A DNA stretch of 64,000 nt. Source: Nitrospirota bacterium (GTDB lineage Bacteria; Nitrospirota; Thermodesulfovibrionia; Thermodesulfovibrionales; Dissulfurispiraceae). The stretch is taken from positions 1 through 64,000 of the forward strand of contig JAJYXI010000046.1 in assembly GCA_021791055.1 (NCBI GenBank), read 5' to 3'. Under the pieces are notes generated by a model, which saw only the letters and a program-made list of their open reading frames with translations, had not been told where the DNA came from and made no database searches. Shown here one piece after another: positions 2,693 through 50,398 of this stretch. Numbering within the stretch: position 1 is the stretch's first letter; every line of letters begins with the position of its first letter. Both the position numbers and the translations under genes were made by a program.

Positions 2693-4036
2693 TTATTCCT
2701 CTTCCCCTTCTACTCTTATAAACAAAGTCTTGTCAGAAACAACTGGGAGGTTGTCTATCTCACTTATCGCATTCAAGACATCCCTCTCCTTTGCCTTGTG
2801 AGCAAGGACAACAAGGGGAACAGAGCCCCCAATCCTTCTGCCCTTCTGAATCACCGATGCAATGCTTATATTGTAATTGCCGAGTATCCCTGAAATCTTT
2901 GATAAAATGCCAGGTCTATCCAGCGCAGAAAATCTGAAATAGTACATGCTTTCGATGTCTTCAATCTTTTTAATTTTAAATTCAGAAACTTCCTTCTGAC
3001 TTCTGACTTCTTGCTTCTGGCTTCTGACTATTTTTCTTCCAATATCCACAATATCGGCTACAACAGCGCTTCCGGTAGGCATATCCCCTGCTCCCCTTCC
3101 GTAATAGAGTGTTGAGCCTACAGCGTCTCCCTCCACATAGACAGCATTGAATACACCGTCAACTTTTGAAATCAAATACTCATTCGGCACCATTGTTGGA
3201 TGCACCCTCATCTCTATCTCTACCCCCCCTGCCCCCCCCTTGGTAAGGGGGGGAGAAGGGGGGGTAGCCTTTGTTATTGCGAGAAGCTTTATCTTATAAC
3301 CAAGCTCTGATGCGAATTCAATATCCTGGGCAGTTATCTTTGTAATCCCTTCTTTATAAACCTCATTGTATGAAAGAGGGATACCGTATGCCAATGACGA
3401 AAGGATTGTGAGCTTGTGCGCAGAATCTATGCCTTCTATATCAAATGTGGGGTCAGCCTCTGCATAGCCGAGCCTCTGTGCCTCTTTCAATGCATCTGAA
3501 AATTCCACTTTTTCATTAGTCATTTTTGTGAGTATATAATTTGATGTGCCGTTTATGATTCCGTAAACAGCAATTATATTGTTAGCAACGAGCCCTTCTC
3601 TCAAGACCTTTATTATTGGTATTCCACCTGCAACAGACGCCTCAAACCCAATCTCGACACCGTTCTTCTCAGCCTCGGAAAAAATCTCATTCCCTTCTGT
3701 TGCAAGCAATGCCTTGTTTGCGGTAACAACATGCTTTTTGTTTCTTATTGCCTGAAGCATAAAATCCCTTGCAGGCCTTATTCCGCCGATAAGCTCGACA
3801 ACTATGTCTATATCAGGGTCGTTGATTAACGCATTGGCATCGGTTGTAAGAACACCTTCCGGCACTTTGATTCCTCTGTCCCTTTTAATATCAGGGTCTG
3901 CAATCCTTTTAAGGACAAAATCAATACCTGCCCTCTTTTTAATGAGCTTGCCGTTTTCGAGCAATATCTTCGCTGTGCCTGTGCCTACTGTTCCGAAGCC
4001 TATTATGCCTACAGAAACCTTATCTTTTGCCATCAT
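2693..4036 (-). CDS. hom: Homoserine dehydrogenase with two repeat insertions
   Basis: Homoserine dehydrogenase reduces aspartate semialdehyde to homoserine for threonine and methionine synthesis. The product (447 aa) has an N-terminal Rossmann domain with GFGTVGTG at 13-20, the central SVAGGIPIIKVLREGL and ADPTFDIEGIDSAHK patterns, and a C-terminal ACT domain (FSALDRPGILSKISG), which usually gives allosteric control. It is longer than typical because of a C/G palindrome insertion (peptide around PPSPPLTKGG) and a heptamer-repeat insertion (SQKQEVRSQKEV) just before the ACT domain. Its start overlaps the aminotransferase stop (TAATG); two ATGs three bases apart are both possible. Confidence 0.93.
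   Translation of the reverse strand: MMAKDKVSVGIIGFGTVGTGTAKILLENGKLIKKRAGIDFVLKRIADPDIKRDRGIKVPEGVLTTDANALINDPDIDIVVELIGGIRPARDFMLQAIRNKKHVVTANKALLATEGNEIFSEAEKNGVEIGFEASVAGGIPIIKVLREGLVANNIIAVYGIINGTSNYILTKMTNEKVEFSDALKEAQRLGYAEADPTFDIEGIDSAHKLTILSSLAYGIPLSYNEVYKEGITKITAQDIEFASELGYKIKLLAITKATPPSPPLTKGGAGGVEIEMRVHPTMVPNEYLISKVDGVFNAVYVEGDAVGSTLYYGRGAGDMPTGSAVVADIVDIGRKIVRSQKQEVRSQKEVSEFKIKKIEDIESMYYFRFSALDRPGILSKISGILGNYNISIASVIQKGRRIGGSVPLVVLAHKAKERDVLNAISEIDNLPVVSDKTLFIRVEGEEE
2991..3029. repeat. 7-nt-period repeat inside hom
   Basis: Degenerate copies of TTCTGAC/TTCTTGC follow each other at a 7-nt spacing. On the coding strand they encode SQKQEVRSQKE between the catalytic and ACT domains of hom. 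The frame is kept. The same word recurs in the P-type ATPase and aroA. Confidence 0.85.
3223..3264. repeat. C/G-rich palindromic element inside hom
   Basis: Runs of 7-8 C, a CTTGGTAAG core and matching runs of G form a nested palindrome. It is inserted in frame and encodes a peptide around PPSPPLTKGGAGG. Sister copies lie at 26678, 42281 and 56813. Confidence 0.9.
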
Positions 4037-7304: not shown

Positions 7305-8183
7305 CTATCTCGTCAGTATCTCCAATATTTCCCTGTACCTCGCCGCTGTTTTCTGCACAATGTCATCTGGAAGAGTCGGCCCTGGATAAGTTTGATTCCA
7401 ATCAAGAGTAAGAAGATAATCACGGACTATCTGCTTGTCGAAGCTGTCCTGCCCTTTGCCGGGCTGATAATCCTTTATAGACCAGAACCTTGAAGAATCA
7501 GGCGTAAGCAGCTCATCGATCAAAATCAATTTATTTTCATATATTCCGAATTCCATCTTTGTATCGGCAATGATGATACCTTTTTTCTCTGCCAGTTCCC
7601 TTCCTTTTTTGTAAACCTTAAGGCTCGCGTCCCTCAGCCTTTCGGCAAGCTCGTCTCCAACTATCTTCTTCATTTCATCGAAACTTATATTAATGTCATG
7701 CCCTTCTTCAGCCTTTGTGCTCGGTGTGAATATAGGCTCATCGAGCCTTGAAGACTCAACAAGACCTTCAGGGAGTTTTATTCCGCATACAGTTCCTTTC
7801 TCTTTATACTCCTTCCATCCCGAGCCAGAAAGGTAACCTCTAACAATGCACTCAACAGGCATGGGCTTTGCCTTTTTCACAAGCATGCTTCTGCCTTCAA
7901 GCATGTCTTTATATTTATGCAATACTTCAGGATAATCCTTAACCTCCGTGGCAACTATGTGGTTTTCAATGATATCCTTCATCTGATTAAACCAGTAAAT
8001 TGATATTTGAGTCAGAATTCTTCCTTTGTCGGGAATTCCGTTGGGCAAAACCACATCAAAGGCAGAGACCCTGTCGGTGGCAATAATCAAAAGATAGTCA
8101 TCAAGCTCATAAACATCCCTCACCTTCCCGCGCCTGAGAAGTTTAATGTCAGAAAAATTGGTCTCCATTAAGACATCAGCCAT
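7305..8183 (-). CDS. purC: SAICAR synthase
   Basis: Phosphoribosylaminoimidazole-succinocarboxamide synthase joins CAIR and aspartate with ATP in purine synthesis. The 292-residue product shows the N-terminal ATP-binding GKVRDVYEL, the [13 protein letters not shown] segment, [12 protein letters not shown] and the [10 protein letters not shown] pattern; length fits the longer, eukaryote-like SAICAR synthases. Its first 16 nt overlap the end of the P-type ATPase gene, so the two are likely translationally coupled. It acts on the product of PurE, whose gene lies in the second riboswitch operon at 15171. Confidence 0.95.
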
Positions 8184-10849
8184 CTCTTCCTCCTGAATAA
8201 TTTCTCGATCTCCACTGCAAAGAATACCACAGATGACAGGCCGAGTGTAAATATCAATTCGTTGAAAGTCAGCGGCTCTGTCTTGAATATGGGATTTAAG
8301 AACGGCACGTATATAGTCGCCATCTGGAAGACAAAGCTCAATATAACCGCTGCCAAAAGCGGCTTGTTTGAAAACAATCCTATCTTAAATAAGGATTCCC
8401 TCTCAGACCTTATTGCAAGCACATGGCCGAGTTGTGTCAGGCAGAGAACTGTAAATACCATCGTCTGCCAATGAGCGTTTCCTGTTTTAATGCTCCACGC
8501 CTGAACAAATAAAACAATAGCCGCCATCAATAAACCGACCCATACGGCATGAAAACCCAAACCTCCGGCAAATATACTCTCCTTCGGATGCCTCGGAGGT
8601 CTTTTCATTACGTCGCCTTCGGCAGGTTCAACTGAAAGAGCAAGAGCGGGAAGACCGTCCGTCATGAGGTTTATCCATAATATATGAATCGGAAGCAATG
8701 GGATAGGCAGTCCTGCGAGGGGCGCAAGGAAGAGAGTCCATATTTCGCCTGAATTCGTTGTAAGAAGGTATTTCACAAACTTCCTTATGTTGTCGTATAT
8801 CTTTCTCCCCTCTTTTACCGCCTTTACGATCGTAGCGAACTTGTCATCGACTAAAATCATATGCGAAGCCTCTTTTGAGACATCCGTGCCTGTTATGCCC
8901 ATAGCTACGCCAATATCCGCCCTTTTCAATGCAGGCGCGTCATTAACGCCGTCTCCTGTCATGGCGACAAACTGTCCTTTATCCTGCAGTGCCTTCACTA
9001 TCTTTAATTTCTGCTCAGGGGCAACCCTTGCATAAACCCTTATGTGTTCAACCCTTTCTTCAAACTCTTCCAGAGATAATCTGTCAAGTTCCCTTCCTGT
9101 AATTACTGCCTTCGCATCATCCTTAATAATCTCAAGCCTCTTTGCTATTGCCTTTGCAGTAAGGGGATGATCGCCTGTTATCATTACAGGCTTTATGCCT
9201 GCTGTCCTACATAATCTTACAGCCTCCTTCGCCTCTTCCCTCGGAGGGTCCATCATTCCCACAAGACCTAAGATCGTAAGCCCCGTCTCAACATTTTCGG
9301 GAGACATATCTTCTGGAATCTTATCCCATCTTCTCATTGCGATACCCAACACCCTCAGTCCGTCAGCAGCCATCCTTTCGTTTATCCTGTAAATCTCCTC
9401 TTTGTCTATAGGCTTCAGCCCGTCAGATGTCAGGACATTAATTGATTTTTCGAGCATGACATCAATCGCACCCTTTGTGAAAGAAATGAACTCAAAATCA
9501 TTTTTTCCTTCTGACTTCTGACTTCTGACTTCTGACTTCTTGTGTATCGTTGTCATGCATTTCCTGTCAGAGTCAAATGGAATCTCGGCAACCCTCGGCA
9601 TGTGTTTTTCGAGTTCATTTTTATCAAAGCCCTTTTCCCTTGCGATGTTAAACAATGCAATTTCTGTTGGATCACCGATTACATTGCCTTCAGCATCTGT
9701 TTGTGCATCGTTGCTTAAAGCAAGGGCAGTCATAAATAAGTCAGAAGTCAGAAGTCTAAAGTCACGAGTTTTTTCTCCCTGACTCCTGACTCCTGACTCT
9801 TGACTCTTGACTATTTTCCCATCAACATAAACCTCTTCAACCGTCATCTTATTCAGCGTGAGTGTTCCTGTCTTATCCGAGCAGATATATGTGACAGAGC
9901 CCAGCGTTTCAACAGCAGGCAGCTTCCTTATGAGGGCGTTTTGTTTCACCATCTTTTTGGCGCCGAGGGCAAGAGAGATGGTCACTACAGCAGGAAGGGC
10001 TTCGGGAATTGCTGCAACAGCAAGAGAAATTGCGGTAAGCAGCATCAGCAAAGGCTCCTCACCCCTCATGACGCCGATGCCGAAGACAATGGCGCAAATG
10101 GCAAGGACAGCGATAGCCAGCTTTTTCCCAAACACTGCAAGCCTTTTCTGAAGAGGCGTTTTCACCTCTTCCTCCTCTTGAAGCATTGTAGCGATCTTGC
10201 CGAGTTCTGTATCCATGCCTGTAGCTGTAACAACTCCGGTCCCTCGGCCGTAGGTTGCAAATGTCCCCTTATACGCCATGTTTTTCCTGTCCCCTATCGG
10301 CAGATGCTCGTCATGCAATGGCTTTACATGCTTCTCAACAGGAATAGATTCCCCTGTTAATGCCGCTTCTTCGATCTTTAGTTGCACAGCCTCCGCAAGC
10401 CTCATATCAGCAGGCACAACCTTTCCAGCCTCAAGGATTACCACGTCACCCGGAACAAGCTGATATGCCGGGATGTTCGAAGGCACGCCGTCTCTTAAGA
10501 CGAGGGCAATGGGTGCGGCCATCTTTTTGAGGGCTGCCATAGCCTTCTCCGCCCTGTATTCCTGAATAAAGCCGATTACCGCATTAAGAACGACTATTAC
10601 AACAATCGCTATGGTATCCGAAGGCTCACCGATGATTCCCGATATAACTGCAGCAGCAATGAGGACGAGGATCATGAAATCCTTGAACTGGTCGAAGAAC
10701 ATCATGAATGGTGACTTTTTCTTTTTTTCCTTCAGTTCATTGGGGCCGTATTCCTCAAACCGCTTCTGTGCCTCTTCTGAAGATATTCCCTGAAGGAATG
10801 AGCCTAAATCTTTAATAACCTCGTTTATTTCTTTTTGGTGCCAGCGCAT
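8168..10849 (-). CDS. Cation-transporting P-type ATPase (Ca2+/Mn2+ type)
   Basis: This 893-residue P2A-type ATPase has the cation ATPase N-domain, TGES at about 165-168, the TM4 ion-binding IPEALP at 281-286, the phosphorylated aspartate D325 in DKTGTLT, and [11 protein letters not shown] in the P domain, followed by the C-terminal six-helix domain. IPEALP and the overall pattern suit Ca2+ or Mn2+ transport. Two heptamer-repeat insertions sit in the cytoplasmic nucleotide-binding region (about residues 346-372 and 438-449), and the catalytic motifs are intact. GAGG lies just ahead of the ATG. The Mn2+ riboswitch upstream makes manganese export a likely role. Confidence 0.92.
9508..9540. repeat. 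7-nt-period repeat in the P-type ATPase gene (1)
   Basis: Four to five near-perfect TTCTGAC units lie in tandem and encode a peptide such as [12 protein letters not shown] in the nucleotide-binding domain. The frame is preserved. Confidence 0.9.
9738..9812. repeat. 7-nt-period repeat in the P-type ATPase gene (2), inverted arms
   Basis: A left arm of GAAGTCA-type units faces a right arm of GACTCCT/GACTCTT units across a spacer, so the whole tract forms an inverted pair. It encodes about 27 extra residues shortly after the DKTGTLT motif, in frame. Confidence 0.88.
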
Positions 10850-10906: not shown

Positions 10907-11212
10907 TTATTTTTTGAACACACTGAACAATTTATCGAGCCCTGATTTTTCAAGCTTTGATACAGCTTCAAGCTCTCCGGCATCAAGCCATATGCCTTCG
11001 CATTCAGAGCATTTGTCAATCTTTATTTCCTTGTAATCAATTTCTATCAACTCCATGCCGCATTTTGGACACCTCATGTAATGGAGTCCTTTCAACCTTT
11101 TCTTTTCTTCTTCAGCAAGCTTCTTGTGTTTTTCCTCTTCAAGCTTCTTTCTTTTTTCATACTCCATTCTTGCCATGTACTCCTCTTCCAATTCGCTCGG
11201 TTTTCTTACCAT
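10907..11212 (-). CDS. Zinc-ribbon protein with TFIIB-type zinc finger
   Basis: This 101-residue protein has a charged, lysine/glutamate-rich helical N-terminal half and a C-terminal zinc ribbon with CPKC near residue 48 and CSECEGIWLDAGEL near 68. The WLDxGEL pattern is typical of zf-TFIIB (PF13453) proteins. Function is unknown; such proteins may bind nucleic acid or metals. AGGGA lies just upstream of the ATG. It is the first gene after the Mn2+ riboswitch and is followed 57 nt later by the P-type ATPase, which hints at a link to metal homeostasis. Confidence 0.82.
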   Translation of the reverse strand: MVRKPSELEEEYMARMEYEKRKKLEEEKHKKLAEEEKKRLKGLHYMRCPKCGMELIEIDYKEIKIDKCSECEGIWLDAGELEAVSKLEKSGLDKLFSVFKK

Positions 11213-11368
11213 AACTATTCCCTCCTTTTGCTTTTTGCAATTTAGTTTTTACCTTATTTAATAAATTCCTTGCCCATACAAATTCGGTGGCAAGGATTCC
11301 CATTAAACAATTTCCTCAAACATATCCCTTTGTGGATTATAGGAGCATATTCTTCTCCAATAAAAAAA

Positions 11369-11405
11369 GACCTTTACCACGAAATATGCTATCGTGGTAA
11401 AGGTC
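11369..11405 (-). terminator. Riboswitch expression-platform terminator 1
   Basis: A 14-bp perfect stem (GACCTTTACCACGA with its complement) around a 9-nt loop is followed on the minus strand by seven T. Its first arm includes CCTTTAC, which also forms the 3' side of the aptamer P1 helix. The terminator and aptamer therefore exclude each other. Confidence 0.92.
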
Positions 11406-11490
11406 TTGCTTGTTAGAATTATTTCTAACCGCGGTACCGGGCTTTGTTGCCGTGTTGACGATAGCCGCTGATTCAGCTACTCCCCTTTAC
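11397..11490 (-). ncRNA. yybP-ykoY (Mn2+) riboswitch aptamer 1
   Basis: Read on the minus strand, the RNA starts GTAAAGGGGAGTAGC (conserved loop GGGGAGTAGC at 11476-11485), has a CGTCAACACGG-type segment, a GCAAGACC joining region and closes P1 with CCTTTAC. These are hallmarks of the yybP-ykoY manganese riboswitch. P1 (GTAAAGG/CCTTTAC) competes with the terminator at 11369-11405, so Mn2+ binding should turn expression on. It leads the operon zinc-ribbon protein - P-type ATPase - purC - mazG. The leader between terminator and first gene holds a further CCTTGCC/GGCAAGG stem near 11270-11297. Confidence 0.9.
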
Positions 11491-11499
11491 TGTTAAAAT

Positions 11500-15064: not shown

Positions 15065-15117
15065 AAAGATGCTCCTACCTGAAGATCAAAAATAAAAGTT
15101 TTTCATTATAACAAAAA

Positions 15118-15139
15118 CCCCTTACTATATAGTAAGGGG
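15118..15139 (-). terminator. Terminator after purE
   Basis: The perfect palindrome CCCCTTACTATATAGTAAGGGG lies about 31 nt after the purE stop and is followed on the minus strand by TTTTTGTT. It should end the htpX-purE transcript. Confidence 0.85.
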
Positions 15140-15170
15140 TTAATACAATTTTATTAAGAAAAAATTTAAT

Positions 15171-15665
15171 TTAGCCCGACTTTTTTAACTCCTTTGATTT
15201 CTCCAGCAATGACTTTCTTGTCTTTTCCCTGAATGCCTCCAGTTTTGCGGCAATCTCAGGATACTTTATAGAAAGGATGGAGCATGCAAGATATGCTGCG
15301 TTCTTTGCGCCGTCTATGGCAACAGTTGCTACCGGTATTCCCGGAGGCATCTGGACAGTCGAATAAAGTGCATCAACACCGTTCAATGCTCCTGATTTAA
15401 GCGGAACGCCTATAACAGGCAATGTCGTATGTGATGCAATAACCCCTGCGAGATGGGCTGCCATGCCTGCCCCTGCTATTATCACCTCAATACCTCGATC
15501 CCTTGCGCTCTTTGAGTACTCAGCTGTCTTTTCAGGAAGCCTGTGGGCAGAACTTATATCCATTTCATAAGAAACTCCCATCTCCTTTAAGACCTCCGCT
15601 GCCTTTCCCATAACAGGCAGGTCGCTGTCGCTTCCCATAAGGATCAATACCAATGGTCTATTCAT
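15171..15665 (-). CDS. purE: N5-CAIR mutase
   Basis: PurE class I converts N5-carboxyaminoimidazole ribonucleotide to CAIR in purine synthesis. The 164-residue protein has the N-terminal [10 protein letters not shown] phosphate-binding loop, the catalytic SAHR near residue 39 and [14 protein letters not shown]. Length is normal. It lies 27 nt after htpX with no terminator between, so it should share the second Mn2+ riboswitch. It ends at the hairpin terminator at 15118-15139. PurC, the next enzyme in the pathway, is in the other riboswitch operon. Confidence 0.95.
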
Positions 15666-15692: not shown

Positions 15693-16541
15693 TTAACTTC
15701 CCATTCTCATGGCCTCAAGCCTTGCTATTCTCTCCTCCATAGGCGGATGTGTGCTGAAGAGCTTTAAAAGCCCTCCACCTGAAAGAGGGTTCACTATAAA
15801 CATATGGGATGTTGCAGGGTTTGCATCCATGGGTATCCTCTGGGAAGCCATGTGAAGCTTTTTAAGGGCATTGGCGAGATACATGGGATTTCCTGCAATC
15901 CTTGCTCCTCCTGCATCCGCACCGTATTCCCTTGAGCGGGATATTGCCATCTGCACCATCATTGCAGCTATGGGGCCAACAATCATCATTACTATAGCTG
16001 CAATGGGATTGCTGCCTCCTTCTTCATCGTCATGCCTTCCTCCAAATATCATTGCCCACTGGGCCATCTGAGCAAGATAGCTTATAGCTCCTGCAATTGT
16101 GGCTGCAATTGTGCCTACAAGAATGTCCCTGTGTTTTATATGGGCAAGCTCATGAGCTATAACGCCTTCAAGTTCCTCCCTCGACAGAATCCTCATGATG
16201 CCGGTTGTTACTGCGACAGTGCCGTGGCTTGGATTCCTTCCTGTTGCAAAGGCATTGGGCTGGTCTTCATCCATTATGCAGACCTTCGGCATGGGAATAT
16301 CTGCCTTGTGTGCAAGCCTTCTGACCATGCCGTAAAGTTCCGGAGCCTCCGCCTCTGTCACCGGCTTGGCGCGGTACATCCTGAGCACTATCTTGTCGCT
16401 GAACCAGTATGTAATGAAGTTCATTCCAAAGGCCATGATAAGGGCAAAGGTCATACCTGACTTACCGCCTAACATACCCCCGATTGCTACGAGCATCAGG
16501 GTCATGGTTACCATCAAGACCATTGTCTTTAATCCGTTCAT
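15693..16541 (-). CDS. htpX: Zinc metalloprotease HtpX
   Basis: HtpX is a membrane-bound M48 protease that degrades damaged membrane proteins. The 282-residue product has two N-terminal membrane helices, the zinc motif HELAH at 130-134 with the conserved IKHRDIL after it, two further hydrophobic stretches, and [10 protein letters not shown], which supplies the third zinc ligand. Length and architecture are normal. GGAGG precedes the ATG. Its leader is the second Mn2+ riboswitch, so the gene should respond to manganese, which is unusual for htpX. purE follows in the same transcript. Confidence 0.95.
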
Positions 16542-16563
16542 TTTTACACCTCCAAATTAAAAA

Positions 16564-16630
16564 GACCTTTACCGCACAAATACTTATTAATAAATTAGTT
16601 TACCAATAAATACTCATTGCGGTAAAGGTC
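16564..16630 (-). terminator. Riboswitch expression-platform terminator 2
   Basis: GACCTTTACCGCA and TGCGGTAAAGGTC form a 13-bp stem with a 41-nt A/T-rich loop, followed on the minus strand by TTTTTAATTT directly ahead of the htpX ribosome-binding site. The first arm shares CCTTTAC with aptamer P1. The U-tract is shorter than in copy 1, and because the stem is close to the start codon, part of the control may be translational. Confidence 0.8.
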
Positions 16631-16720
16631 TTGCCTGTTAGTTTTTTTCTAACCAGTGCTACCGGCCTGCATAAAGCAGACGTGCTGACGATATACACTG
16701 CCTGAGCTACTCCCCTTTAC
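16622..16720 (-). ncRNA. yybP-ykoY (Mn2+) riboswitch aptamer 2
   Basis: This is the second copy of the same class. On the minus strand it begins GTAAAGGGGAGTAGC (conserved loop 16706-16715), continues with CGTCAGCACG, then GGCAAGACC, and closes with CCTTTAC at 16622-16628. It shares the conserved core with the copy at 11397-11490 but differs in the variable stems, as expected for an RNA kept by structure. It leads htpX and purE. Confidence 0.9.
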
Positions 16721-16730
16721 TAATTCTTAG

Positions 16731-16758
16731 ATTATCGGAAATAAGAAAATTATGTCAA
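16731..16758 (-). promoter_or_regulatory. Promoter for riboswitch 2
   Basis: TTGACA (minus strand, 16753-16758), a 16-nt spacer and GATAAT (16731-16736) would start transcription near 16724, just before the aptamer. Confidence 0.65.
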
Positions 16759-16845: not shown

Positions 16846-17133
16846 TCATTTTTCTCTTTTCAAGAGCCTCAAGGTCTCTTCATATATAGTCTTTCTGGGT
16901 CCGATGGCTACAATTTCAATAATACCCTTGTCCGTTGCAGTTTTATAAATCACCCTGAATTTGCCTGATTTAAAGCTTTGCAGCCCCCCAAGTTCATCCC
17001 TCAAACCCTTGCCTGTTTGAGGGTCATTTAAAATAGCCTGTAAAGCGGCTTTTATCTTTCGTTTTATATCCGGGTGGAGTGTGCGAACTAATTCCGCTGT
17101 CTCATCAGACATTTTCAGTCTGCGGATGTTCAT
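16846..17133 (-). CDS. RelE/ParE-family toxin
   Basis: This 95-residue protein has the RelE/ParE fold pattern: an N-terminal strand, two helices with LHPDIKRKIKAALQAI, then LRDELGGLQSFKSGKFRVIYK and EIVAIGPRKTIYEETLR at the end. Such toxins are usually mRNA endonucleases on the ribosome (RelE) or gyrase poisons (ParE); the basic C-terminal strand favours a RelE type. It follows the Phd-type antitoxin with no gap, as expected for a type II module. Confidence 0.86.
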   Translation of the reverse strand: MNIRRLKMSDETAELVRTLHPDIKRKIKAALQAILNDPQTGKGLRDELGGLQSFKSGKFRVIYKTATDKGIIEIVAIGPRKTIYEETLRLLKREK

Positions 17134-17394
17134 TTATCTGAACAGTTCCTCGAGAGTATAAAGCTTTGCCTTGCCTTTCTTCAAAGCCGTCAAGCCTTTT
17201 TTAATCTCATCCATAAATGCGTAGTCAGAGCGTATGGCAACCGTCTCCTTCCAGCCCTCAAACTCATCAGGGCTGACCAGTACGGCAGCAGGAGAGCCGT
17301 TTTTTGTAATAATGACCTCCTCATCTGTTCTGTAAACAGAATCCACAAGGCTGCTCAGCTTCATCTTCGCCTCAGAAAGTGATAATGTTTTCAT
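17134..17394 (-). CDS. Phd/YefM-family antitoxin
   Basis: This protein is about 86 residues long with an N-terminal Phd/YefM DNA-binding domain (LSLSEAKMKLSSLVDSV then EVIITKNGSPAAVLVSPDEFEGW) and a charged C-terminal tail that would wrap the toxin. I chose the start at 17394 because of AAGGAGG upstream and because the family begins with this MKT(L)SL pattern. It binds the toxin encoded directly downstream and probably represses its own promoter through the palindrome at 17411-17424. Confidence 0.86.
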   Translation of the reverse strand: MKTLSLSEAKMKLSSLVDSVYRTDEEVIITKNGSPAAVLVSPDEFEGWKETVAIRSDYAFMDEIKKGLTALKKGKAKLYTLEELFR

Positions 17395-17410
17395 TGAGTC
17401 AAACCTCCTT

Positions 17411-17424
17411 TCTGGTTGACCAGA
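17411..17424. promoter_or_regulatory. Candidate antitoxin operator palindrome
   Basis: TCTGGT-TG-ACCAGA lies just upstream of the antitoxin ribosome-binding site. A second palindrome, TTGATATATCAA, is at 17451-17462. Phd/YefM antitoxins bind such palindromes to repress their own operon; that this one does so is inference. Confidence 0.5.
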
Positions 17425-17544
17425 ATTAAGACTAATATAACAGAAATCTATTGATATATCAATATCCAGATCCGTAATCAATCATCACGAATATAGGTTG
17501 TTCTGAAAAAGGCTTTAAACTATTGCCACTGGAAATTTATCCGG

Positions 17545-49581: not shown

Positions 49582-50024
49582 TACACCTTAATCCCCACAT
49601 ACACCTTTCCGTCTTTAATTTCGAGCGGCAGCCTCGTTAACGGCTTCGGAGGAGGCCCTGCAATCACATCTCCGTTCATATTATATTTACCGCCGTGACA
49701 TGGACAGAGAAATTCCTTTTTATTGTTATCCCAGTTCACCAGACATCCGAGATGAGTGCATACAGGTGAAAATGCAGTTAATTTATCGTTATTGGCAGCA
49801 ACAAAAACACGATTGGTAATTATCTTATCTTCAAGCTTATATACAAATTCTACCCTTCTGACGCCCTTCCTCGGCAGCTCATCCTCATCCATAAGGTAAA
49901 TGTAATGGAGCTTTCTATTTTTGATTTTTGAGGGGTATATATAAACAAGGGCGGAAAGGATAGCAATAGCAAGGATCGAGAAAAAAACCTTTATTGCCCT
50001 TTTTAGAAAATCCCTTCTCTTCAT
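49581..50024 (-). CDS. Rieske iron-sulfur protein
   Basis: This 147-residue protein has an N-terminal hydrophobic anchor (VFFSILAIAILSALVYIYPS) and the 2Fe-2S ligand motifs CTHLGC and CPCHGG, plus the following GGKYNMNGDVIAGPPP with the usual proline loop. It is the electron acceptor of the cytochrome b pair downstream. No cytochrome c1 or f gene is nearby, so the acceptor chain is unknown. Confidence 0.93.
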   Translation of the reverse strand: MKRRDFLKRAIKVFFSILAIAILSALVYIYPSKIKNRKLHYIYLMDEDELPRKGVRRVEFVYKLEDKIITNRVFVAANNDKLTAFSPVCTHLGCLVNWDNNKKEFLCPCHGGKYNMNGDVIAGPPPKPLTRLPLEIKDGKVYVGIKV

Positions 50025-50025
50025 T

Positions 50026-50119
50026 ATGAGTAAATGGGTGAATGAGTAAATGGGTGAATGAGTATAAAGAGCATTAAAAACTCCTTCCTCTCATTTACCC
50101 ATCTACTCATCTACTCATT
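50026..50119. repeat. 8-nt-period repeat with inverted arms, petC-ihf
   Basis: TGAGTAAATGGGTGAA is repeated in the left arm, and CATTTACCCATCTACTCAT-type units form the inverted right arm. The right arm supplies the last codons and stop of the IHF/HU gene. Confidence 0.85.
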
Positions 50120-50398
50120 AGCTGAATTGAGCGCATTATGAAACGGCTTGCCTACCTTGAAATGAAGCACCCTTTTAGGAGGCACCTGAACCTTCTCGCC
50201 TGTTCTCGGATTTCTTGCTGTTTTTGCATTCCTCTGTTTTAGCCTGAAATTTCCAAAGCCCCTTATCTCTATCTTCTCTCCGCGGGCAAGGGCATCTTTC
50301 ATCCCGTCAAAAATCGCATTGATAATGGTCTCCACCTGTCTCTTTGTCAGGCCTTCTACCCTTTCTGTCACCTTCTCTATTAAAACCGACCTTGTCAT
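50111..50398 (-). CDS. HU/IHF-family DNA-binding protein
   Basis: This 95-residue histone-like protein has the IHF/HU fold with VERVEGLTKRQVETIINAIF and the conserved GFGNFRLKQRNAKTARNPRT DNA-contact arm. The sequence resembles IHF beta (himD), an assignment supported by its place near rpsA and cmk, as in many genomes. It binds and bends DNA. The stop codon is formed by the adjacent repeat. No IHF alpha gene is seen. Confidence 0.93.
   Translation of the reverse strand: MTRSVLIEKVTERVEGLTKRQVETIINAIFDGMKDALARGEKIEIRGFGNFRLKQRNAKTARNPRTGEKVQVPPKRVLHFKVGKPFHNALNSANE

Follow-up and report, generated by a model that had tools for sequence, protein, structure and literature searches.

The alx riboswitch of E. 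coli acts by translational control, and its target is an exporter of the TerC family. The homologous yoaB leader of L. lactis is an antitermination ON switch (PMC11087558) preceding a Mn-homeostasis gene; its crystallised aptamer (4Y1I) forms a four-way junction that includes a helix P2. In this class Mn2+ is contacted by an adenosine of loop L3, which is A41 in L. lactis and A48 in X. oryzae (PMC6754395, PMC9190785). In S. pneumoniae a Ca2+/Mn2+ P-type ATPase is under the mgtA riboswitch, whose aptamer is a three-way junction; the study describing it reports no link to htpX (PMC9495176). Membrane proteolysis as a guard against Mn2+ excess is known from B. subtilis, where MgtE, an importer of Mg and Mn, is degraded by YqgP and FtsH when Mn2+ is high, which protects the cells (PMC7231995). 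A 2013 RNA-regulon survey counted 232 yybP-ykoY sites, and htpX is not named in its text (PMC3766115). Searches of the open literature for htpX with yybP-ykoY, manganese or Geobacter riboswitches revealed no report of such a link; a study on TerC proteins was the only relevant paper (PMC10550928).

We analysed a stretch of 64,000 nucleotides from a Nitrospirota bacterium, here called the window, in which the htpX gene is preceded by a structured leader. The following features make up its transcription unit; R1 denotes a covariance model described below.

16731–16758, minus strand: sigma-70-type promoter, near-consensus (TTGACA, 16 nt, GATAAT; 11/12 matches)
16621–16721, minus strand: predicted yybP-ykoY-class Mn2+ aptamer of the htpX leader (R1 95.9 bits, E 9e-25)
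16686, minus strand: invariant adenosine of loop L3 (UCA), kept in 28/28 aligned aptamers
16559–16632, minus strand: intrinsic terminator of the htpX leader, from the predicted fold, competing with the aptamer
15693–16541, minus strand: htpX, M48 membrane zinc protease of 282 aa (PF01435, 1.2e-38)
15171–15665, minus strand: purE-like gene, 27 nt downstream of htpX, named from sequence reading
15116–15141, minus strand: intrinsic terminator closing the htpX-purE unit, from the sequence

With a probability of roughly 0.8 we regard this leader as a Mn2+-sensing, yybP-ykoY-class transcriptional ON riboswitch, which would induce HtpX as part of a Mn-tolerance regulon that also includes a Ca2+/Mn2+-type P-type ATPase. 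The identity of the protease is supported by the NCBIfam equivalog NF002826 (418.5 bits, cut-off 369), by the M48 domain and by a HEXXH motif reading HELAH at residues 130–134. The htpX-purE-like arrangement is kept across the family, and the purE-like gene is probably co-transcribed with htpX. The promoter layout, TTGACA...GATAA(T/A)CT, was also found in two leaders of the same genus (L005 and L007). Upstream of the promoter, positions 16846–17481 (minus strand) read like genes for a RelE/ParE-type toxin and a Phd-type antitoxin.

The original prediction had an aptamer and its terminator abutting the ribosome-binding site of htpX, and these positions proved correct within a few bases. The terminator ends 5 nt before the Shine-Dalgarno sequence GGAGG (16553–16549, minus strand), which is followed by the htpX ATG at 16541. 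Its stem pairs 16632–16618 with 16576–16562, and a U-run extends from 16563 to 16559. The full leader folds with a predicted energy of −63.1 kcal/mol compared to −39.4 kcal/mol for shuffled sequences (z = −6.8). When the transcript was ended at the aptamer, the unconstrained fold contained P1.1 (7 bp), the L1 internal loop, a short P1.2, P3.1, L3, P3.2 and P4; with the downstream sequence added, a long terminator hairpin with a CUUUUU end displaced P1.1. Since the 5′ stem of the terminator (AAGACCUUUACC) and the 3′ strand of P1.1 have CCUUUAC in common, the two folds are mutually exclusive. According to the predicted energies of −38 kcal/mol for the terminator alone and −30 kcal/mol for the aptamer alone, the terminator is thermodynamically dominant, and therefore switching must be kinetic and decided during transcription. 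As modelled, the architecture of the leader is that of a transcriptional ON switch, in which the terminator excludes the helix that the ligand would stabilise.

Assignment of the leader to its class could not be based on Rfam. RF00080 gave no match to either of the two aptamer copies of the window even at E ≤ 10, and Rfam searches at gathering and relaxed thresholds returned nothing sensible for the leader, only microRNA-like matches to the terminator. Two long inverted repeats of the window, a TACTCAT-rich hairpin (50023–50123) and a C-rich/G-rich hairpin (3219–3265), also gave false microRNA/snoRNA matches. The current RF00080 model, which comprises 177 positions, did not match the validated E. 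coli alx leader at E ≤ 5 either and scored the mntP leader at 41.6 bits, below its cut-off of 45 bits. Because these proven members also fall short, we attribute the silence on the window copies to a failure of the model. RF00080 thus overlooks members with a three-way junction, and genome surveys using it undercount Mn2+ switches and their regulons.

For this reason a covariance model was built from relatives. With a three-part motif, 29 loci were gathered from the order of the window, of which 28 were aligned to give R1. Its training sequences match R1 by construction, and the loop motifs were already part of the search pattern (which contained GGGGAGTAGC, CGTCA and CCGGT), so that independent support comes from alx and mntP. 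Although trained only on the window's order, R1 recovered two E. coli leaders, that of alx with 41.6 bits (E 2.3e-9) and that of mntP with 21.3 bits (E 1.4e-3), and only noise elsewhere. Within the window the best unrelated site reached 11.9 bits compared to 95.9 bits for the htpX aptamer.

In the 28-sequence alignment 92.6% of cells are paired and 13 pairs changed on both sides. Double-changed cells numbered 54, compared to 17.4 in shuffles and 8–15 with slid partners, and compensatory changes were found in 5/6 pairs of P3.1, 2/3 of P3.2 and 4/4 of P4. The switch helix P1.1 (AAAGG/CCUUU), which closes the aptamer, is paired in 98.0% of cells. Invariant are GGGGAGUAGC in L1, CGUCA...ACG and CCGG (CCGGU) in L3, and AGACC within GC(A/G)AGACC. 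The L1 loop typical of the class (GGGGAGUA / AAGA with extruded A10) is thus represented by GGGGAGUAGC and GC(A/G)AGACC, and the L3 loop with its Mn-contacting adenosine (UCA) and 3′ CCGG is likewise present in the sequence. By sequence mapping, A16686 is the equivalent of L. lactis A41 and X. oryzae A48. The L. lactis residues A3–A5, G6, G7, G9, U39, C40, A41, C96, C97 and U98–U100 (PMC9190785) map to AAAGGGGA, UCA and CCUUU, and the L. lactis loop UCA41AU43UC (PMC6754395) corresponds to the UCA of the window aptamer. Helix P2 of the crystallised form is replaced by a linker of 5–6 nt, which makes the aptamer (helices P1.1, P1.2, P3.1, P3.2 and P4) a three-way junction; a P2-like hairpin was seen by eye in the htpX leaders of L171 and L196.

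The leader shares with alx the loops L1 (AAAGGGGAGUA) and L3 (AUCGUCA..ACG...CCGGU), P1.1, P3, the 3′ AGACC and the lack of a long P2. It differs by its transcription terminator overlapping P1.1, whereas alx carries a large hairpin before its 3′ strand, and by its target, a protease instead of an exporter. With yoaB it has in common P1.1 (AAAGG/CCUUU), the Mn-sensing adenosine, an overlapping terminator and, as predicted, ON polarity (PMC11087558, PMC9190785), but yoaB has P2 and its gene is not a protease gene. Recovery of alx and mntP by R1, covariation and invariant loops bear out the yybP-ykoY assignment made from the sequence at the outset. The missing Rfam match might also be taken to mean that the fold of the leader has decayed or arises by chance, and that the leader contains no more than a constitutive terminator. 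Covariation, invariant loops and recurrence in 60 of the 176 genomes of the order speak against this reading; it is already refuted by the comparative data and we give it practically no weight.

A second aptamer in the window precedes an operon of its own.

11396–11491, minus strand: sister Mn2+ aptamer, predicted (R1 97.7 bits)
10907–11212, minus strand: Zn_ribbon_TFIIB protein, first gene after the sister aptamer (PF13453, 2.2e-15)
8168–10849, minus strand: P-type cation ATPase, nearest to PMR1-type Ca2+ (Mn2+) pumps (TIGR01522, 762 bits, just under the cut-off of 798)

The sister aptamer is likewise followed by its own competing terminator (about 11364–11410, minus strand); like the mgtA riboswitch of S. 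pneumoniae, it would control a P-type ATPase. Neither a third aptamer, searched for with the motif pattern, nor a TerC gene was found in the window's genome. Between 11212 and 11367 a carbonic anhydrase gene of relatives (L023, L025–L028) is missing, and a similar ribosome-binding stretch is left. The first genes behind sister aptamers encode P-type ATPases, GDT1/UPF0016, TerC, carbonic anhydrase, UPF0114, UPF0182, TFIIB-type zinc ribbon and Band_7/HflC-like proteins, and in two genomes a second M48 protease follows TerC.

Homology to alx and mntP together with the sister copies at Mn-exporter families strongly supports Mn2+ as the ligand. Nevertheless, an RNA of this class might respond in vivo mainly to Ca2+ or alkaline pH, with Mn2+ as one input, and HtpX induction would then belong to ionic or alkaline stress. 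The S. pneumoniae mgtA aptamer binds Ca2+ besides Mn2+ (PMC9495176), the full response of the alx and mntP leaders requires alkaline pH (PMC9603457), the pump of the sister operon is of the PMR1 type, and carbonic anhydrase is among the sister targets. However, L3 keeps its Mn-specific N7 adenosine without exception, and sister copies lie upstream of GDT1 and TerC, families tied to Mn export, so that we regard a Ca2+ or pH switch as unlikely.

The aptamer recurs in front of htpX far beyond the window. The R1 search of the order yielded 79 aptamers in the 60 genomes mentioned above, and HtpX is encoded in 143 of the 176 genomes. Of the 79 aptamers, 31 sit 49–170 nt upstream of htpX on the same strand (one with an incomplete HtpX frame, G141). 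A counterpart at htpX was also to be sought in close relatives, and it was present in all three other genomes of the genus (4/4 with the window), in 15 of the family's 28 genomes with HtpX and in unrelated orders. No faint aptamers were detected at htpX of G006, G007, G017, G018 and G157 by a search with filters off; as the HtpX genes of the first four are close relatives, control by the aptamer is not essential to HtpX in the family. A scan of named bacterial genomes, in which 80 HtpX loci were kept, revealed an aptamer directly upstream in five: two of the window's group, one of Clostridiales, one of a deltaproteobacterium (GWA2_54_12) and one of Geomonas azotofigens. The first two are read as Nitrospirota because a Thermodesulfovibrionia bacterium is their closest named match. 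Geomonas possesses three aptamers, of which two precede one htpX gene each; the third of G. azotofigens (L210) lies upstream of a small gene (MEQKQYITHVKRKTTRKKKE...). In Geobacterales 97 of 117 genomes contain aptamers, and among the 150 aptamers listed 77 are located 65–265 nt upstream of htpX, in 64 genomes.

Among 47 htpX leaders carrying the aptamer, a regex scan found 43 with a hairpin that competes for the P1.1 strand; this hairpin has no obvious U-run in a few from Geobacterales. On the HtpX tree the aptamer trait needs at least 15 changes, 8 of them forced by well-supported branches, and appears in about five separate places. The tree comes from a short search, and its label counts are slightly off, as the regex scan behind the labels missed at least one aptamer (L080, found by R1). 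Several genomes contain one HtpX with and one without an aptamer, pointing to a Mn-inducible paralogue alongside one that Mn does not induce. Competing terminator and recurrence thus uphold the original placement of htpX under a switch of the manganese class. Judged by sequence, aptamer, competing terminator, gene order and recurrence are well established, and HtpX is a recurrent target of this putative Mn2+ riboswitch in dozens of genomes of the Nitrospirota and Geobacter groups.

Individual leaders deviate. The htpX leader of L070 (G024:C79) has lost the aptamer and joins the promoter directly to the terminator (GATAATCTAACAAGCAAGACC...), which looks like a deletion between two CTAA repeats; htpX would then be permanently attenuated, unless this is an assembly fault. 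In the htpX leader of L075 (G124:C13) a stretch of ~110 nt, bounded by inverted ends (CCCCGTTAGAAT...ATTCTAACGGG) and resembling a small mobile element, sits in the P4 loop of the aptamer and is apparently tolerated there. In L103 (G012:C22) two foreign-looking reading frames (~2 kb) separate the riboswitch from a 90% identical htpX.

In five genomes one operon combines aptamer, htpX and a P-type ATPase gene.

L266: aptamer, htpX, P-type ATPase
L262: aptamer, htpX, small membrane protein, zinc ribbon, ATPase
L265: aptamer, htpX, carbonic anhydrase, small membrane protein, ATPase
L267: aptamer, htpX, aptamer, ATPase
L261: aptamer, htpX, zinc ribbon, four genes, ATPase

Such units could mean that the switch serves the cation pump and that htpX is regulated merely through the shared operon, without a Mn-specific role. 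The same could be argued from L020 and L121, where the aptamer is kept before what is apparently only an N-terminal htpX remnant (MNTLKTMILT stop in L020), followed by a P-type ATPase or carbonic anhydrase gene. But htpX is the first gene behind an aptamer of its own in the window, in the window's genus and in many Geobacterales, two htpX genes of Geomonas each have one, and the HtpX tree shows the link in about five separate parts. We consider a passive role of htpX rather improbable, if slightly less so than a Ca2+ or pH switch, and favour a Mn-specific one.

Mn2+ binding and ON polarity of the htpX leader are deduced from homology. At low Mn2+ the 3′ strand of P1.1 would pair downstream to form the intrinsic terminator, and transcription would end before htpX. 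At high Mn2+ an ion between L1 and L3 would dock L1 on L3 and stabilise P1.1, as in L. lactis (PMC11087558), and thus block the terminator; htpX, and probably purE, would then be transcribed. HtpX would most likely clear membrane proteins carrying the wrong metal, stuck in translocation or themselves importing Mn2+, a role that is plausible and that we infer from other systems. The B. subtilis TerC protein MeeF, of a Mn exporter family, co-purifies with HtpX and FtsH, and FtsH turns essential once Mn loading of secreted proteins fails (PMC10550928). In E. coli an over-expressed Mn exporter has a toxic effect of its own on the membrane (PMC11647493). The findings on MeeF, on YqgP-FtsH and on exporter toxicity would each make a Mn-induced HtpX useful, and none of them is proof. 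YqgP-FtsH differs in that Mn2+ is sensed by the protease's own domain instead of an RNA, and in being a rhomboid/AAA instead of an M48 protease.

Besides manganese damage to membrane proteins, the original prediction had offered a link to the metal status of HtpX. HtpX is a metalloprotease, and Mn2+ might displace its Zn2+ or activate it, so that more enzyme is made at high Mn2+. This would leave the other quality-control genes of the regulon (Band_7/HflC-like, second M48 protease) unexplained, and we consider it very improbable. Operon context and literature together favour ideas of the membrane-damage kind.

The leader RNA belongs to a known class, and htpX as its recurrent target does not figure in the open literature searched. 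The interest lies less in the RNA than in a regulon-wide tie of Mn2+ to membrane proteolysis. Tentatively, and at somewhat less than even odds, bacteria of at least three phyla may possess a Mn2+-riboswitch regulon in which exporters of Mn (P-type ATPase, GDT1, TerC) are combined with quality control of membrane proteins (HtpX, the second M48 protease, HflC-like Band_7). HtpX would then be a dedicated Mn-inducible protease for membrane proteins that import Mn or are damaged by it, and a counterpart of YqgP-FtsH under RNA control. Few clear phenotypes and natural substrates of HtpX are known. A putative Mn2+ switch that recurs at htpX and was placed there independently provides a condition under which to seek both, in culturable organisms such as Geomonas and relatives of Geobacter. 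It may also mean that membrane proteostasis is one side of Mn toxicity, to which two recent B. subtilis studies point from other directions. HtpX looks like a part of the manganese-tolerance response, and its pairing with the aptamer often adjoins a metal-export pump.
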